Origin: Deltaproteobacteria bacterium
GTDB taxonomy: Bacteria > Desulfobacterota > Desulfobulbia > Desulfobulbales > Desulfobulbaceae
Assembly: GCA_024280455.1 (NCBI GenBank)
Contig: JAJRQC010000039.1
Location: 1 to 52,692 of the forward strand
Reading direction: 5' to 3'
Length of the DNA: 52,692 bases
Shown here: positions 41,721-47,482 of the stretch, one piece after another
How the letters are laid out: every line of letters begins with the position of its first letter
Numbering within the stretch: position 1 is the stretch's first letter
Position numbers and translations under genes: made by a program
Notes under the pieces: model-generated
Told to the model about the DNA's origin: nothing
What the model saw: only the letters and a program-made list of their open reading frames with translations
Databases searched by the model: none

Positions 41721-41749
41721 TTGACAGTTGAACCCCTGGCCTGTAAAGT
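41721..41749 (+). promoter_or_regulatory. nikA: sigma-70 promoter of the nickel operon
   Basis: TTGACA (41721-41726) and TAAAGT (41744-41749) are separated by exactly 17 bases. The -10 overlaps the left arm of the operator at 41748, so a bound repressor would block RNA polymerase. The start codon is about 150 bases downstream. Confidence 0.7.
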
Positions 41750-41774
41750 GTTACGAAATATGAAAAAGTAACAC
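41748..41774 (+). promoter_or_regulatory. NikR-type operator
   Basis: GTGTTAC-N13-GTAACAC is a perfect seven-base inverted repeat (41748-41754 and 41768-41774). It agrees with the NikR-site form GTGTTAC-N13/14-GTAACAC that I recall for deltaproteobacteria. It sits over the -10 of the operon promoter, the expected place for nickel-dependent repression. The nikR gene itself is not in this window. Confidence 0.75.
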
Positions 41775-41902
41775 TAGCGGTTTTATCAGGGTTATTTCAG
41801 GTAATTTCTCACAGCACTTTCAATTCAATGTTTAACGGCTAACCCGTGAGCAGCAAATCTCAGCCTGCTCAAAATTTGAACCTTAATTTCATGGAGATAA
41901 AA

Positions 41903-43450
41903 ATGATACTGAACAACAAAAACATTCCAATTCTTTTGTTGTGTATACTTCTCATACTGGGGGCTGGCCAGGTGCTGGCTTCACAACCTGACAGACCTCT
42001 GGTTGTGGTGTCTCCGTGGGGGGCAAAGGGTATGGATCCGTTGGTTTCCGGGTTCATCTTTACCCGGATGGGTTGCCTCGAGACCCTGGTGACAACCGAT
42101 GGCAAGGGCAAGGGGGGGCTTACACCACTGCTTGCCAGCAAATGGAGTGTTTCTGAAGACAAATTGACCTGGACCTTCACCGTAAAGGATGGTGTCTTCT
42201 TCCATGACGGTACCCCGCTTACAGGAGAAAACACGGCCCTTGCCCTGGAGCGGATATTTGCCAACGGTAAGTTGTTCAAGGGATCTCCAGTGGAATCTGT
42301 ACGTGGTTCCGGACAAAAGGTTATTATCAAAACCTCAACCCCCTTTTCCGCCCTACCAGCCTATCTGGCCCATTCCAGTACTGCAATCATGCCCCCGGCA
42401 GCCTTTGCGGATGACGGTACGGTCAAAAAAATCATCGGTACCGGATTTTACAGGCTTGCAGATACAGACGGCAAAACTGTTTTCAACTTTACCGCCTTTG
42501 CTGATTACTGGGGGGAGAAGGCCAAAATCGAAAAGGCTCGTTACCTTGCCGTAAGCGATGGAGAAACCAGAGCCTTGATGGCAGAATCAGGAGATGCGGA
42601 TATTGCCCTCACTCTTTCTGCAACTGCTGCCAGGCGGTTGCGGGACCAAGCCAATGTACAGATAAACAGTACCGCGATTCCACGTGTACGTGAGATAACC
42701 CTTAACGCCAATCTGGTTTTTTTCGATAGCGCAGTTGAGAGGCTGGCCCTGTCCATGGCCATTGACCGTCAAGGGATCGCCCAGGCAATTCTGAAAAATC
42801 CGGAAACAGCTGCAACCCAGCTTATGCCCGCAGTCTCCATGTGGCATAACCCCGGGCTTACTCCGCTTGCCCATAACCCTGAAAAAGCACGCCAACTGCT
42901 TGAAAAGGCAGGATGGACGAAAAACAAAAATGGCATTTATGCTCAAGATGGGCAGGATTTTTCCTTTGACTTGCTCACCTACTCCACCCGTCCCATGCTT
43001 CCTGTCGTCGCCGAAGCCCTCCAATCTCAGTTTGCGGAGATAGGGGTAAGGATGAATATTGTCGTAGGTAAATCATCGCAGATACCGGCAAGATACAAGG
43101 ACGGAACCCTGGAAGCTGCCCTGGTTGGACGCAATTTCGGTCTGGTTCCTGATTCGATAGGGACCATAAAGTCCGACTTCGGTCCAGCCGGCGCCAGAGG
43201 ATCCTGGGGTTCACTCGGCTGGAAATCCGGAAAACTGAATGGATTGATTGACCAGTACCTGGCAACCTTTGAGGAGAAAAAAGCTGCAGTGATACGGGGA
43301 AAGATAGCTGAAATTCTGCAAAAAGAACTGCCGGTTATTCCGGTCTCCTGGTATGACCACCATGTTGCGGTGAGTAAAAAGATCAGCGGGGTACAACTTG
43401 ACCCCTATGAAATCAAGCCATATACCAAAGGAGTTTCATGGGTCAGGTAG
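41903..43450 (+). CDS. nikA: nickel/peptide ABC transporter substrate-binding protein
   Basis: A 515-residue periplasmic solute-binding protein of family 5 (SBP_bac_5). A signal peptide (residues 1-26, ending GQVLA) is followed by LVVVSPWGAKGMDPL, then KWSVSEDKLTWTFTVKDGVFFHDGTPL, the SBP_bac_5 hallmark. Later come KIIGTGFYRL and LALSMAIDRQGIAQAIL. The start ATG at 41903 fits the SD TGGAGAT, while an upstream ATG at 41891 lies within that SD. Family members bind nickel or a nickel-chelator complex, or peptides; the NikR-type operator argues for nickel. Confidence 0.85.
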   Translation: MILNNKNIPILLLCILLILGAGQVLASQPDRPLVVVSPWGAKGMDPLVSGFIFTRMGCLETLVTTDGKGKGGLTPLLASKWSVSEDKLTWTFTVKDGVFFHDGTPLTGENTALALERIFANGKLFKGSPVESVRGSGQKVIIKTSTPFSALPAYLAHSSTAIMPPAAFADDGTVKKIIGTGFYRLADTDGKTVFNFTAFADYWGEKAKIEKARYLAVSDGETRALMAESGDADIALTLSATAARRLRDQANVQINSTAIPRVREITLNANLVFFDSAVERLALSMAIDRQGIAQAILKNPETAATQLMPAVSMWHNPGLTPLAHNPEKARQLLEKAGWTKNKNGIYAQDGQDFSFDLLTYSTRPMLPVVAEALQSQFAEIGVRMNIVVGKSSQIPARYKDGTLEAALVGRNFGLVPDSIGTIKSDFGPAGARGSWGSLGWKSGKLNGLIDQYLATFEEKKAAVIRGKIAEILQKELPVIPVSWYDHHVAVSKKISGVQLDPYEIKPYTKGVSWVR

Positions 43451-44394
43451 TCAGGAGCATCTGTACCCATCTGTTCCAGGGGATCAGCGTTGCCCTGATT
43501 GTCGCGACACTGGGGTTCCTTGCCGTCAACCTGACCCGTGGCGACACCGCTCTGGATATTGCCATTGCCCGCTACAGCGAAGACCTGGCTGATGAGAGAG
43601 TTGTTGAGCTGGTTCGCAGGGAAGAGGGGCTGGATCAGCCCCTCTTCGTGCAATACTGCCAATGGGTGGGCCGTATCCTGACCCTTGACCTTGGCAGATC
43701 TCTGGTCAGCAGGGAACCGGTTACCGCTTTGCTGATCCATCATTTTCATTACACTTTTCTGCTGGCAACAGCGGCAATAGCAGTTTCGCTGCTTATCGCC
43801 CTGCCATGGGGAGTCCTGTGTGGGATCTATCCCGGCGGGACTTTTGACCATATCTCATCAATGATCTGCAGCGCACTGGTCTCTGTACCCCAGTTCGTCA
43901 TCGGACTGCTGCTGATCCTGGCCCTTGCAATCAGGCTGCACTGGTTTCCGGTGGCCGGTTTTTTCTCTCCGGCCCATCTGGTCCTGCCGGCCATAACTCT
44001 CGGAATCGGACTGGCCGCTGTTTCCAGCCGGGTCATTGCCACCTCCCTGGCTGAAGTTCGCGGGTCTTTGTTTTACAGGTTCGGAGCCATGAAAGGGTTG
44101 TCACCGTTCAGGGTGTTTACGGCCCATGGCATTAGAAACGCCTCTATCCCGGTGGTAACCTATATCAGTGTGCAGGCTGCTCACCTGCTGGACGGGGTCG
44201 TGGTGGTGGAGACACTGTTTGCCTGGCCGGGACTTGGAAAACTGTTGCTGGATTCCGTGCTTGCCCGTGATATTCCGGTCATTCAGGGAGCCTGCCTGCT
44301 GATCGGTATTCTCTATGTCGCCGTCAATATAACGGTTGACCTGATCTGTCTTGTCCTTGATCCACGCCGCAGAAACCGGTTGGCTACCAGTTGA
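43438..44394 (+). CDS. nikB: nickel ABC transporter permease, NikB-like
   Basis: A 318-residue inner-membrane permease of the DppB/OppB type. There are about six hydrophobic segments, the N-terminal FFxxNLTRGD-like VNLTRGDTALDIA loop, and the EAA-type cytoplasmic loop (SLAEVRGSLFYRFGAMKGLSPFRVFTAHGIRNA) that docks on the ATPase. It overlaps the end of nikA by 13 bases. A nickel-specific role follows from the operon only; the family also moves peptides. Confidence 0.87.
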   Translation: MGQVVRSICTHLFQGISVALIVATLGFLAVNLTRGDTALDIAIARYSEDLADERVVELVRREEGLDQPLFVQYCQWVGRILTLDLGRSLVSREPVTALLIHHFHYTFLLATAAIAVSLLIALPWGVLCGIYPGGTFDHISSMICSALVSVPQFVIGLLLILALAIRLHWFPVAGFFSPAHLVLPAITLGIGLAAVSSRVIATSLAEVRGSLFYRFGAMKGLSPFRVFTAHGIRNASIPVVTYISVQAAHLLDGVVVVETLFAWPGLGKLLLDSVLARDIPVIQGACLLIGILYVAVNITVDLICLVLDPRRRNRLATS

Positions 44395-44399
44395 GTCCA

Positions 44400-45209
44400 A
44401 TGGAAACACAGAAGAAAAACGAACAGTGGCAGGTGATTTCCGGCTTGCTGATTCTCAGCATAATCGGTCTGTTTGTGGTTATTGGACCCTTTTTGACTCC
44501 CGATCCCTGCAGGCAGAATCTGACTCAGGTCTTTACCCAGCCCGGTACGCCCTATCTGCTGGGAGCCGATCATCTCGGCAGGAGTGTCGCCGCCCGACTG
44601 GCAGGGGGAGGAATGAACACCCTTTCTTTCAGCCTGCTGTGTGTTGCAGGTTCGGTCCTTTCCGGGGTCGGGCTTGGGCTGGCTGCCGCCTGGTGCGGCG
44701 GCTTGACGGATACGCTCATTATGCGACTTGTGGATATCACCATGGCGTTTCCGGGTATTATTCTGGCCCTTCTGATTGCCGGAGTGGTCGGAGGCGGGCC
44801 CGTGGCGGTCATTATCGCCTTGATGCTCACCGGCTGGCCCGAATACTGCCGTATCAGCAGAGCCGTTGGACTGAACACAATGTCCCGTCCCTATGTGGAG
44901 GCCGGAGTGCTGGCAGGGTTTTCAGGTTTTTTTATCCTGAGGAAATACATCATTGCAGAAGTACTGCCCCAGATAACGGTTCTTGCCCCCCTCGGACTTG
45001 GCCGAACCGTCCTGAATATATCTTCACTGGGATTTCTCGGCATCGGCCTGGCTCCGCCTGAACCTGAATGGGGGGCCATGATTGCCGAGTCTCTGCCCTA
45101 CTTAAGGCAATCGCCTCATCTGGTGCTGGTTCCGGCAACAGCACTGTCCCTGACGGTCTTTGCCTTCTTTCTGATCGGCCGTCCTCTGGGCCGGAGGGTG
45201 AGAAAATGA
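44400..45209 (+). CDS. nikC: nickel ABC transporter permease, NikC-like
   Basis: A 269-residue permease, partner of NikB. The conserved N-terminal block TPYLLGADHLGRSVAARLAGGGMNTL is followed by six helices and the EAA-type loop (YCRISRAVGLNTMSRPYVEAGVLAGFSG...). The ATG at 44400 is chosen; a TTG at 44391, overlapping the nikB stop, would add three residues. The gene overlaps the next one by four bases (ATGA). Confidence 0.87.
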   Translation: METQKKNEQWQVISGLLILSIIGLFVVIGPFLTPDPCRQNLTQVFTQPGTPYLLGADHLGRSVAARLAGGGMNTLSFSLLCVAGSVLSGVGLGLAAAWCGGLTDTLIMRLVDITMAFPGIILALLIAGVVGGGPVAVIIALMLTGWPEYCRISRAVGLNTMSRPYVEAGVLAGFSGFFILRKYIIAEVLPQITVLAPLGLGRTVLNISSLGFLGIGLAPPEPEWGAMIAESLPYLRQSPHLVLVPATALSLTVFAFFLIGRPLGRRVRK

Positions 45210-46039
45210 GAACTCCCCTGCTCCAGGTGAATGATCTGACAATCCGCTCTGTTGCGCAGAGAAAACGACTGGTTGCCGATGTCAGCTTTACCGTTTCCAG
45301 GGGAGAGGCCTTTACCCTGATAGGAGAGACTGGTTCCGGAAAAACACTGGTGGCCCAGGCCGTGTGCAGCTGCTTGCCGGAAGAACTTGTCGCCGGCGGA
45401 GCAGTTGATTTCAAAGGCGTTAATCTTGCCCGGCTTCCTGCAAAGGAAAAGCGACGCATTTATGGAAAAGAATTATTTCTACTTCCCCAGGAGCCGAACT
45501 CGGCTCTTGACCCGGTTATGCTGGTGGCAGGCCAGGTATCCGAAATATTCAGGTATGTACGAAGGTATGATCCTCAAGAGCTGCGCCATACGCTTGCAGC
45601 ACTTTTTTCCGACCTTGGCCTCTCCCTTTCAGGCAACGGAAGGCTTTACCCCTGTCAGCTCTCCGGGGGGATGCAACAGCGAATACTTCTGGCAATTGGA
45701 CTTGCGGTTCCTGCTGAATTTATTGTTGTTGATGAGCCGACCAAGGGGCTTGATGCAATCTCCAGAGCATCAGCAGTGAAGAAGCTGAAAAACCTGCTCA
45801 GCAAAGGAAAAACCCTGCTCTGCATAACCCATGACCTGTCGGTGGCCCGTGCGCTTGGCGGCCGGATGGCCGTGATGTACGGCGGGTATATCGTCGAGTC
45901 AGGGGACGTTTGGCAACTGCTTGATGCACCAAAGCATCCCTATACCAGGGGGCTGGTCAATGCCGCCCCTGAAAACGGCCTGATTCCCATAGCTGAAGAA
46001 GTACTGGCCGCCATGAAAACTGCCTGGCAGAATGGCTGA
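45206..46039 (+). CDS. nikD: nickel ABC transporter ATP-binding protein, NikD-like
   Basis: A 277-residue ATPase. Walker A is LIGETGSGKTLVAQAV, the Q-loop is LLPQEPNSALDP, the signature LSGGMQQRILLA, Walker B FIVVDEPTKGLD, the switch CITHDLSVA, and a C-terminal oligopeptide-permease tail with HPYTRGLVNAAP is present. The start at 45206 follows the nikC overlap. A longer frame upstream is shadow sequence in nikC. Confidence 0.88.
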   Translation: MRTPLLQVNDLTIRSVAQRKRLVADVSFTVSRGEAFTLIGETGSGKTLVAQAVCSCLPEELVAGGAVDFKGVNLARLPAKEKRRIYGKELFLLPQEPNSALDPVMLVAGQVSEIFRYVRRYDPQELRHTLAALFSDLGLSLSGNGRLYPCQLSGGMQQRILLAIGLAVPAEFIVVDEPTKGLDAISRASAVKKLKNLLSKGKTLLCITHDLSVARALGGRMAVMYGGYIVESGDVWQLLDAPKHPYTRGLVNAAPENGLIPIAEEVLAAMKTAWQNG

Positions 46040-46754
46040 ACAGCGGGTGGAAAAGATGGCTGATTACTGTATCAGAGCGGAAAATCTGACAAAATCTTTT
46101 TCAGGAAAAGGCAGGAACAACAGCAAGGTGCTGTATCGGGACCTTTCACTTGCTGTCAGGCCGGGAGAGATTGTCGGCCTTTTCGGTCCCTCCGGTTGCG
46201 GCAAGTCAACCCTGGGAGATATTCTTCTTTCCCTCCAGTTACCTGACCGGGGAAATGTTTTCTGGAACGGGGTCAATGTACTTCAGGCCGGCAGAAAAAA
46301 GCGAAAGGCCCTGCGGCCCCTTTTTCAAAAAATACACCAGGATCCCGGCTCCTCTTTCCCGCCCCATCAGCTGGTTGGAGAAGCCCTGTATGATATTGTC
46401 AGACTCAGAAACCCAGCCCTTGCCGGAGAGGGTTACCGGCAACAGATGGCAGCGGCTGCCCAGGAGGTACACCTGGATGAAAAGTTGCTTGACCGTTACC
46501 CGATCCAGCTCTCCGGTGGAGAAATACAACGGTTCGCCCTGGCACGGGCTCTGCTGAACAATCCGGTTTTCCTGGTGGCTGATGAGCCCACCTCGCGGCT
46601 GGATTACTCGGTACAGGCTAATATAATACGGCTGCTGATGCGGCTTGCCGAAAAACGGAGAATAGGAATACTGCTGATCAGCCACGACCGCTCACTTCTC
46701 CAGGTTGCCTGTGAACGGATTATGACTTTGAAAGAGGAGGACAACAAAATTTGA
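46032..46754 (+). CDS. nikE: nickel ABC transporter ATP-binding protein, NikE-like
   Basis: A 240-residue ATPase forming a pair with the upstream ATPase. Walker A is LFGPSGCGKSTLGDIL, the Q-loop FQKIHQDPGSSFPP, the signature LSGGEIQRFALA, Walker B FLVADEPTSRLD, and the switch LLISHDRSLL. It starts eight bases before the end of nikD. The C-terminal OPP tail is short, as is usual for the second ATPase of these systems. Confidence 0.88.
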   Translation: MAEQRVEKMADYCIRAENLTKSFSGKGRNNSKVLYRDLSLAVRPGEIVGLFGPSGCGKSTLGDILLSLQLPDRGNVFWNGVNVLQAGRKKRKALRPLFQKIHQDPGSSFPPHQLVGEALYDIVRLRNPALAGEGYRQQMAAAAQEVHLDEKLLDRYPIQLSGGEIQRFALARALLNNPVFLVADEPTSRLDYSVQANIIRLLMRLAEKRRIGILLISHDRSLLQVACERIMTLKEEDNKI

Positions 46755-47482
46755 TGAACCATACAGAGTTAATGCAATCTATTCGGACATACTGGGACTG
46801 GCGAGCCTCCTCTTTTGACAACACTTCCGCCCGGCAGCAAAGTTGGTGGCAGGTTTACAACCATATACTGAATGGTTCAGCAAGGCAATGTATACTGGAT
46901 GCCGGTACAGGCACAGGCTTTATTGCCACCGGACTGGCGGAGAAAGGCCACATGGTAACCGGTATTGACCTTTCCCCGGTCATGTTACAACTGGCCAGGG
47001 CAGCAACTGCCGAAAAAAAAATCAACCTGCAATTCCTCGCAGCCGACGCCGTTGATCCCCCCTTCAGACCGGAAAGTTTTGATGCGGTTGTCTGCCGAAA
47101 CCTGCTCTGGACCATTCCCGATCCCGGTCTTGCCTTACGGCGGTGGCACAAGATCCTCAAATCCGGCGGGAAACTTGTCGTCTCCGATGGCATCTGGCGG
47201 AGTAGCGGCTTTAAAGGAGTATTGAACCAATATGTACGCCTGATATTCTCTGTCATGAAGAAAGGTTTTTCCAGCTCCACCCCGCTTCGCTTTGCTGTGG
47301 CTTACGGCTCATGCAGGGATAAACTCCCATACCTGAACGGTATCCACGCAGATGCGGCCCGGGAACTGCTGCTTGGCTCAGGTTTCAGCCAACCGGTTCA
47401 GCACGAACACCTCTTTACCCGGCATCCCTATCCGACAGGTTACGGCTCCCGTTTTTTTGTCATCAGTGCCGCCCGGCCATGA
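46754..47482 (+). CDS. class I SAM-dependent methyltransferase at the end of the nickel operon
   Basis: A 242-residue methyltransferase. The SAM loop is CILDAGTGTGFIATGLAEKG, followed by VTGIDLSPVMLQLARAA, then FDAVVCRNLLWTIPDPGLALRRWHKILKSGGKLVVSDG (motif II and post-II). It lacks recognisable substrate domains. Its ATG shares one base with the nikE stop, so it is co-expressed with the transporter under the same operator. A role in making or modifying a nickel-chelating metabolite, or in a nickel-dependent pathway, is inference; the substrate is unknown. Confidence 0.82.
   Translation: MNHTELMQSIRTYWDWRASSFDNTSARQQSWWQVYNHILNGSARQCILDAGTGTGFIATGLAEKGHMVTGIDLSPVMLQLARAATAEKKINLQFLAADAVDPPFRPESFDAVVCRNLLWTIPDPGLALRRWHKILKSGGKLVVSDGIWRSSGFKGVLNQYVRLIFSVMKKGFSSSTPLRFAVAYGSCRDKLPYLNGIHADAARELLLGSGFSQPVQHEHLFTRHPYPTGYGSRFFVISAARP

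Follow-up and report, generated by a model that had tools for sequence, protein, structure and literature searches.

The NikR signal of delta-proteobacteria, GTGTTAC-[N13/14]-GTAACAC, has been in print since 2004 (Rodionov et al., PMC545781), where the everted form is also recorded, in Desulfotalea psychrophila and at D. vulgaris nikK. As described in passages of that paper, the regulon comprises nikMNQO-type and hydrogenase genes; two types of nickel transporter were then known, NikABCD among them, and the genomes studied had neither. In E. coli a NikR box is found at the five-gene nikABCDE operon, and passages of PMC7055735 give it as GTATGA-N16-TCATAC. NikABCDE systems controlled by B12 riboswitches are also known, according to part of PMC2667541. 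The Nik/Opp/Dpp operons described in cable bacteria (PMC11247825) are Nik-type ABC operons like the one reported here, and probably from the same order; in the part of that account used here the binding protein is an Opp1A orthologue, and such genes were not found in other Desulfobulbales.

We analysed a 52,692-nucleotide stretch of a Desulfobulbaceae genome, from a relative of sulfate reducers (contig JAJRQC010000039.1; the window), for which an earlier note had proposed NikR control of an ABC operon. The locus has half-sites, spacing and regulator in common with the published delta-proteobacterial regulon, but here the box precedes a Nik ABC operon. As in E. coli, five Nik ABC genes lie in one operon behind a NikR box; the differences are the box itself, a nikR gene unlinked to the operon and an added methyltransferase gene.

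A Nik-like ABC operon with a methyltransferase gene

The operon consists of nikABCDE and a methyltransferase gene (Table 1) and ends at 47482. The encoded binding protein, two permeases and two ATPases place it among the ABC importers of the Nik/Opp/Dpp class. The earlier note had described a six-gene ABC operon with five overlapping ABC genes; five ABC genes were indeed present and neighbours mostly overlap, but the sixth gene lies outside the ABC class, and nikB and nikC are separated by five bases if nikC begins at its ATG and not at the alternative TTG start at 44391.

Table 1. Features of the nikA operon and its upstream region in the window (G046 and G111 are genomes of relatives, L091 a locus)
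Feature	Position	Strand	Evidence or comparison
Sigma-70-like promoter TTGACA-N17-TAAAGT	41721..41749	+	same hexamers in G046
Predicted NikR operator GTGTTAC-N13-GTAACAC	41748..41774	.	motif search and conservation
nikA-like family 5 substrate-binding protein	41903..43450	+	profiles, sequence and fold comparison
nikB-like permease	43438..44394	+	Opp2B 285.6 bits, cut-off 350
nikC-like permease	44400..45209	+	Opp2C 229.1 bits, cut-off 300
nikD-like ATPase	45206..46039	+	best model CntF, 181.7 bits, cut-off 385
nikE-like ATPase	46032..46754	+	best model NikE, 166.1 bits, cut-off 354
Class I SAM-dependent methyltransferase	46754..47482	+	kept in G046, L091 and G111 operons

The earlier note expected that homology alone would call the transporter a peptide importer. 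This was not the case: the best NCBIfam matches of NikA, NikB, NikC and NikE are nickel models, and among solved chains S. aureus CntA and E. coli NikA come closest in sequence to the window NikA. The best model for NikD is CntF, of staphylopine uptake. All of the NCBIfam scores lie below the curated cut-offs, and the proteins are therefore called Nik-like here and are not filed as E. coli-type NikABCDE equivalogs. In a low-identity phmmer alignment, R137 of E. coli NikA falls near H157 of the window protein and H416 is not kept; we take these two E. coli residues to belong to the nickel pocket. In an alignment of four sequences, H157 and H315 of the window protein are invariant. An AlphaFold model of the window NikA (mean pLDDT 90.1) was compared with known folds, including by Foldseek, and gave Z 39.5 for S. 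aureus NikA (rmsd 3.6 over 461), 38.5 for E. coli YliB (rmsd 2.4 over 467) and 37.2 for E. coli DppA (rmsd 2.3 over 469). Since nickel- and dipeptide-binding proteins are nearly equal in Z, the modelled fold does not decide the substrate.

Among the 25 matches listed for the methyltransferase, no NCBIfam family scored above its cut-off. The protein is 70-71% identical in the G046 and L091 operons and 44% identical in G111, where its gene is placed ahead of nikA, and weak homologues (30-36%) lie near Nik-type genes in Desulfovibrio, a SAR324 bacterium and Granulicatella. It may have a role in the function of the operon.

A predicted NikR operator at the nikA promoter

The upstream box reads GTGTTAC-GAAATATGAAAAA-GTAACAC, a perfect repeat with a 13-base spacer, and shares two bases with the -10 hexamer of a promoter matching the sigma-70 hexamers at 10 of 12 positions (41721-41726 and 41744-41749, 17 bases between them). 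The arrangement is as the earlier note had described it, and its statement that this spacing is the delta-proteobacterial NikR form is borne out by passages of PMC545781. The two halves of the operator are each GTRWYAC half-sites, with centres 20 bp apart.

Within the 4.15-Mb genome, a search at spacers 12-15 found a single perfect GTGTTAC/GTAACAC copy, that of the window; base composition predicts 0.00017 perfect copies at spacer 13 per window and 0.014 per genome. Inverted repeats as such are less rare: when 180-base upstream stretches were shuffled, a perfect 7-base repeat occurred in 1.3% of them at a 13-base spacer and in 18% at any spacer from 3 to 20, and the weight of the box therefore rests on its match to the published motif and on conservation. 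The latter figure, together with a dipeptide-binding protein almost as close to the NikA model as the nickel proteins, would suit a transporter of peptides whose upstream inverted repeat arose by chance; the exact match to a known motif so rarely expected, and the boxes of orthologous operons described below, make this very improbable. Weak matches alone carry no meaning, since up to three mismatches gave 64 places in the genome and 164 for a reversed control pattern. Two one-mismatch places were judged by their context (below), and no everted copy with up to two mismatches was found in this genome.

A NikR homologue, a second box and hydrogenases in the same genome

The earlier note proposed a search of the genome for nikR and for further copies of the site, and both were found. 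A nikR homologue lies on contig C169 (3521-3931) and scores 122.5 bits against TIGR02793. This is below the cut-off of 175.45 bits, which one of 14 control genomes passes while six respond at all, so the protein is a NikR homologue outside this narrow equivalog. In an alignment to solved NikR chains, it has all four nickel ligands, H76, H87, H89 and C95 (E. coli numbering), at the same spacing. The further copy is a one-mismatch box, GTATTAC-N13-GTAACAC (C123:1258-1284), ten bases before the genome's own nikM (PF01891). Downstream of this nikM come a putative nikL, which has no match in Pfam and is named by its place, then a gene of the CbiQ family and one for an ATPase.

The genome also has ten matches to PF00374, the strongest two (732 and 665 bits) being [NiFe]-hydrogenase large subunits. 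Stop codons lie inside some of these matches (C20:29217-29681, C76:27784-28083 and C76:15833-17371), with TGA in two and TAG in the strongest; the TGA codons possibly encode selenocysteine.

A second NikR-like gene, with a NikR_C domain, was observed on contig C60 (L002:1438-1965) beside a DUF1989 gene, with ABC transport genes nearby by eye. The presence of this second NikR_C-domain protein raises the prospect that the operator serves another regulator. However, the C60 protein has R, N, L and S at the aligned positions of the four nickel ligands, none of which is kept, and it lies beside the genes just named; we give this prospect hardly any credence.

The second one-mismatch place (C61:9913-9939; L053:7914-7940) is a convergent box that separates two divergently transcribed genes for multihaem cytochromes c, and G003, a genome of the same genus, has a perfect box at the same place (L218:688-714). 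As the place is boxed in both genomes, a cytochrome may be a NikR target.

Orthologous operons and the case for cobalt

Seven of the 257 genomes of the order, own included, have a NikA homologue at E <=1e-60, as does one of eight of the genus. A box precedes three of the six orthologous operons, with one mismatch in two of them. In G046 (NikA 81% identical) it is everted, exact to GTRWYAC, and at the same place in an alignable promoter as that of the window. In G012 (47%) it is everted with one mismatch; no nikB-E hit was obtained in the 20 kb fetched there, which is close to a match for a group II intron. In G111 (67%) a direct-repeat box with one mismatch stands 30 bases before the methyltransferase gene that precedes nikA, and there is none directly before nikA. 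Such pairs at one mismatch occurred in 23 of 8000 shuffled stretches. The expectation that orthologous operons would carry the site thus held for these three, but not for G115 (81%; same contig as L091, judging by length and place), with no box within the 128 visible upstream bases, nor for G031 and G069 (37-38%), where cobalamin riboswitches (122.8 and 119.7 bits) were found and neither a box nor a methyltransferase hit.

These riboswitches bear on the metal. NikR may control the operon while the main substrate is cobalt, or while cobalt and nickel are both taken up. This would fit the riboswitch-controlled homologues, and also cbiK and a gene for a periplasmic binding protein, with which the operons of G046 and L091 continue. 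Against this, the window has no Rfam match at gathering score, and NikR-type boxes are found in the window, G046, G012 and G111; we consider a mainly cobalt or two-metal transporter unlikely, if less so than the alternatives above. The cbiK and binding-protein continuation, assigned by Pfam in G046 (L048:8266-10013) and by likeness of reading frames in L091 (5764-7773), is not seen in the window. Known Nik-type ABC systems are likewise divided between nickel and cobalt control, as far as part of PMC2667541 describes them; here the division falls within one homologue group (37-81% NikA identity) in one order.

Outside the order, loci L093-L107 (Psychrobacter, Pasteurellaceae, Alphaproteobacteria and Micromonospora; 35-41%) lacked both a box, with up to two mismatches allowed, and a cobalamin riboswitch reaching the gathering score; at five of them the neighbouring genes, inspected by eye, held no hint of a metal. 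Among more distant loci only L120 (Desulfovibrio, 26%) had an everted box, at two mismatches.

Half-site pairs at fixed spacing in several orientations

We scanned regions upstream of nikM, which was found in 51 of 57 genomes, at 30 fetched loci (own included in both counts). With up to two mismatches, 13 of the 30 had a convergent box and none an everted one, where shuffles predict 0.04 and 0.08. The degenerate pair GTRWYAC-N13-GTRWYAC was present in 14 regions, own included, always at spacer 13: in the same regions neither the other spacers between 6 and 22 nor five control half-sites gave any pair, and 16 had no strict box. The start of each of the 14 pairs lies 57-65 bases from the end of the scanned region, in which 20 bases of coding sequence are included. 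Nine are convergent, and the others are direct repeats, three of one sense (G030, G012, G038) and two of the other (G034, G019).

Upstream of nikR, 36 loci were tried and 35 had a hit (own included, two places seen twice). Everted boxes with up to two mismatches were found at four places (G012, G046, G041, G048), and no convergent box in the 35 loci scanned. Across the 257 genomes, exact convergent boxes occurred in 23 (control pattern 9) and exact everted boxes in 32 (control 4). Fifteen of 22 fetched convergent loci of relatives adjoin a nikM, nikR or nikL homologue, and 14 of 30 fetched everted loci, from the 32 genomes, adjoin a nikM, nikR or nikA homologue. Some of the remaining loci face TonB-receptor-like and NikK-like genes (by eye) and some no nameable gene.

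Several individual loci were also recorded. Exact everted boxes lie upstream of TonB-receptor-like genes, by eye, at L238, L239 and L248, and an identical everted box occurs at such loci in two genera (G030, G005). More distant NikA-like genes stand behind exact everted boxes at L240, L242 and L246. Two tandem exact everted boxes precede another family 5 binding protein in G046 (C51:10416-10614), and in G144 (L228:1501-1610) exact convergent and everted boxes, 56 bases apart, precede one gene.

We considered whether orientation is a trait of the resident NikR, as nikA boxes match the nikM or nikR boxes in three genomes (the window's own, convergent; G046 and G012, everted). This was rejected as a strict rule: five of the 257 genomes have exact boxes of both orientations (G005, G035, G097, G101, G144), a direct-repeat box is also found at the nikM of G012, and orientation does not follow the N-terminal strand of NikR, the own protein and that of G041 both reading MLKRFSIS with boxes of opposite form.

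The occurrence of convergent, everted and direct-repeat forms at orthologous promoters, the self-complementarity of GTRWYAC and the everted box of G046 at the promoter position of the window box appear to be new. The passages of PMC545781 used here do not speak of direct repeats. Among the matches listed in a literature search that mostly covered papers outside subscription, none dealt with direct-repeat NikR boxes or with the methyltransferase of the operon. For the NikR of Geobacter uraniireducens, a 2010 paper by Benanti and Chivers reportedly, going by its title, describes a distinct DNA-binding mode, and it may cover half-site symmetry.

Patchy distribution of the operon

In G003 the genes that flank the operon are about 640 bases apart, compared with 6.7 kb in the window. 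The flanks are ftsH on one side and, on the other, a pcm remnant followed by radical-SAM and glycosidase-like genes (by eye). The operon is thus a cassette of roughly 6 kb, absent between the same neighbours in G003. Five other stretches were fetched (four of the same genus, one of the same family) and matched at ftsH only, which leaves G003 as the sole junction comparison. Mis-binning of the contig as a cause of the patchiness was rejected, as both flanks match G003 (87% DNA identity). The operon proteins of the window genome and G046 are 68-82% identical, compared with 60% for NikR and 54% for NikM, which suggests transfer of the operon between families; loss in G003 is the alternative there.

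Proposed regulation and significance

Taken together, NikR very probably controls this operon and nickel is among the substrates, an estimate that overlaps with the cobalt or two-metal reading above. The perfect published motif, the ligand-bearing NikR, the nikM box here and in relatives, the orthologue boxes, the hydrogenase genes and the closeness in sequence of NikA to solved CntA and NikA chains largely support the NikR control proposed in the earlier note. G115, unboxed over its 128 visible upstream bases, the below-cut-off NikR and NikA-E scores and the pocket residues not kept count against it, as do the 16 nikM regions with no strict box, the lack of a convergent box before nikR in 35 loci and a modelled fold shared by nickel and peptide binders. 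We infer that nickel, or a nickel chelate, is transported, and that NikR would bind the box and repress.

NikR is a tetramer of two ribbon-helix-helix dimers. With nickel plentiful, Ni-NikR would sit on both half-sites, across the -10 hexamer and the start site, and nikABCDE and the methyltransferase gene would be off; with nickel scarce, the operon would be on and supply the [NiFe] hydrogenases. We regard this conventional reading as the best one. Each GTRWYAC half-site would suit the twofold axis of one dimer. As a pattern GTRWYAC is its own reverse complement, so a symmetric dimer could accept a half-site either way round without loss. The promoters show the 20-bp spacing of centres fixed and the orientation of each half-site free. 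The wider joint proposal, which we hold with about even confidence, is that NikR of this order reads GTRWYAC pairs with the spacing of 13 fixed and orientation free, that operators flip in place, and that the transporter group is split into a nickel branch, with a NikR box and usually its own methyltransferase, and a cobalt branch with a B12 riboswitch.

The analysis proposes a metal and a regulator for a transporter whose scores against family models fall short of the cut-offs, and would extend the delta-type NikR regulon to a Nik-type ABC operon. The window and G046 would provide natural operator variants, with the same promoter and flipped half-sites, and the group offers paired nickel and cobalt transporters for comparison. 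If the split into nickel and cobalt branches is true, the residues that set specificity would be directly readable.
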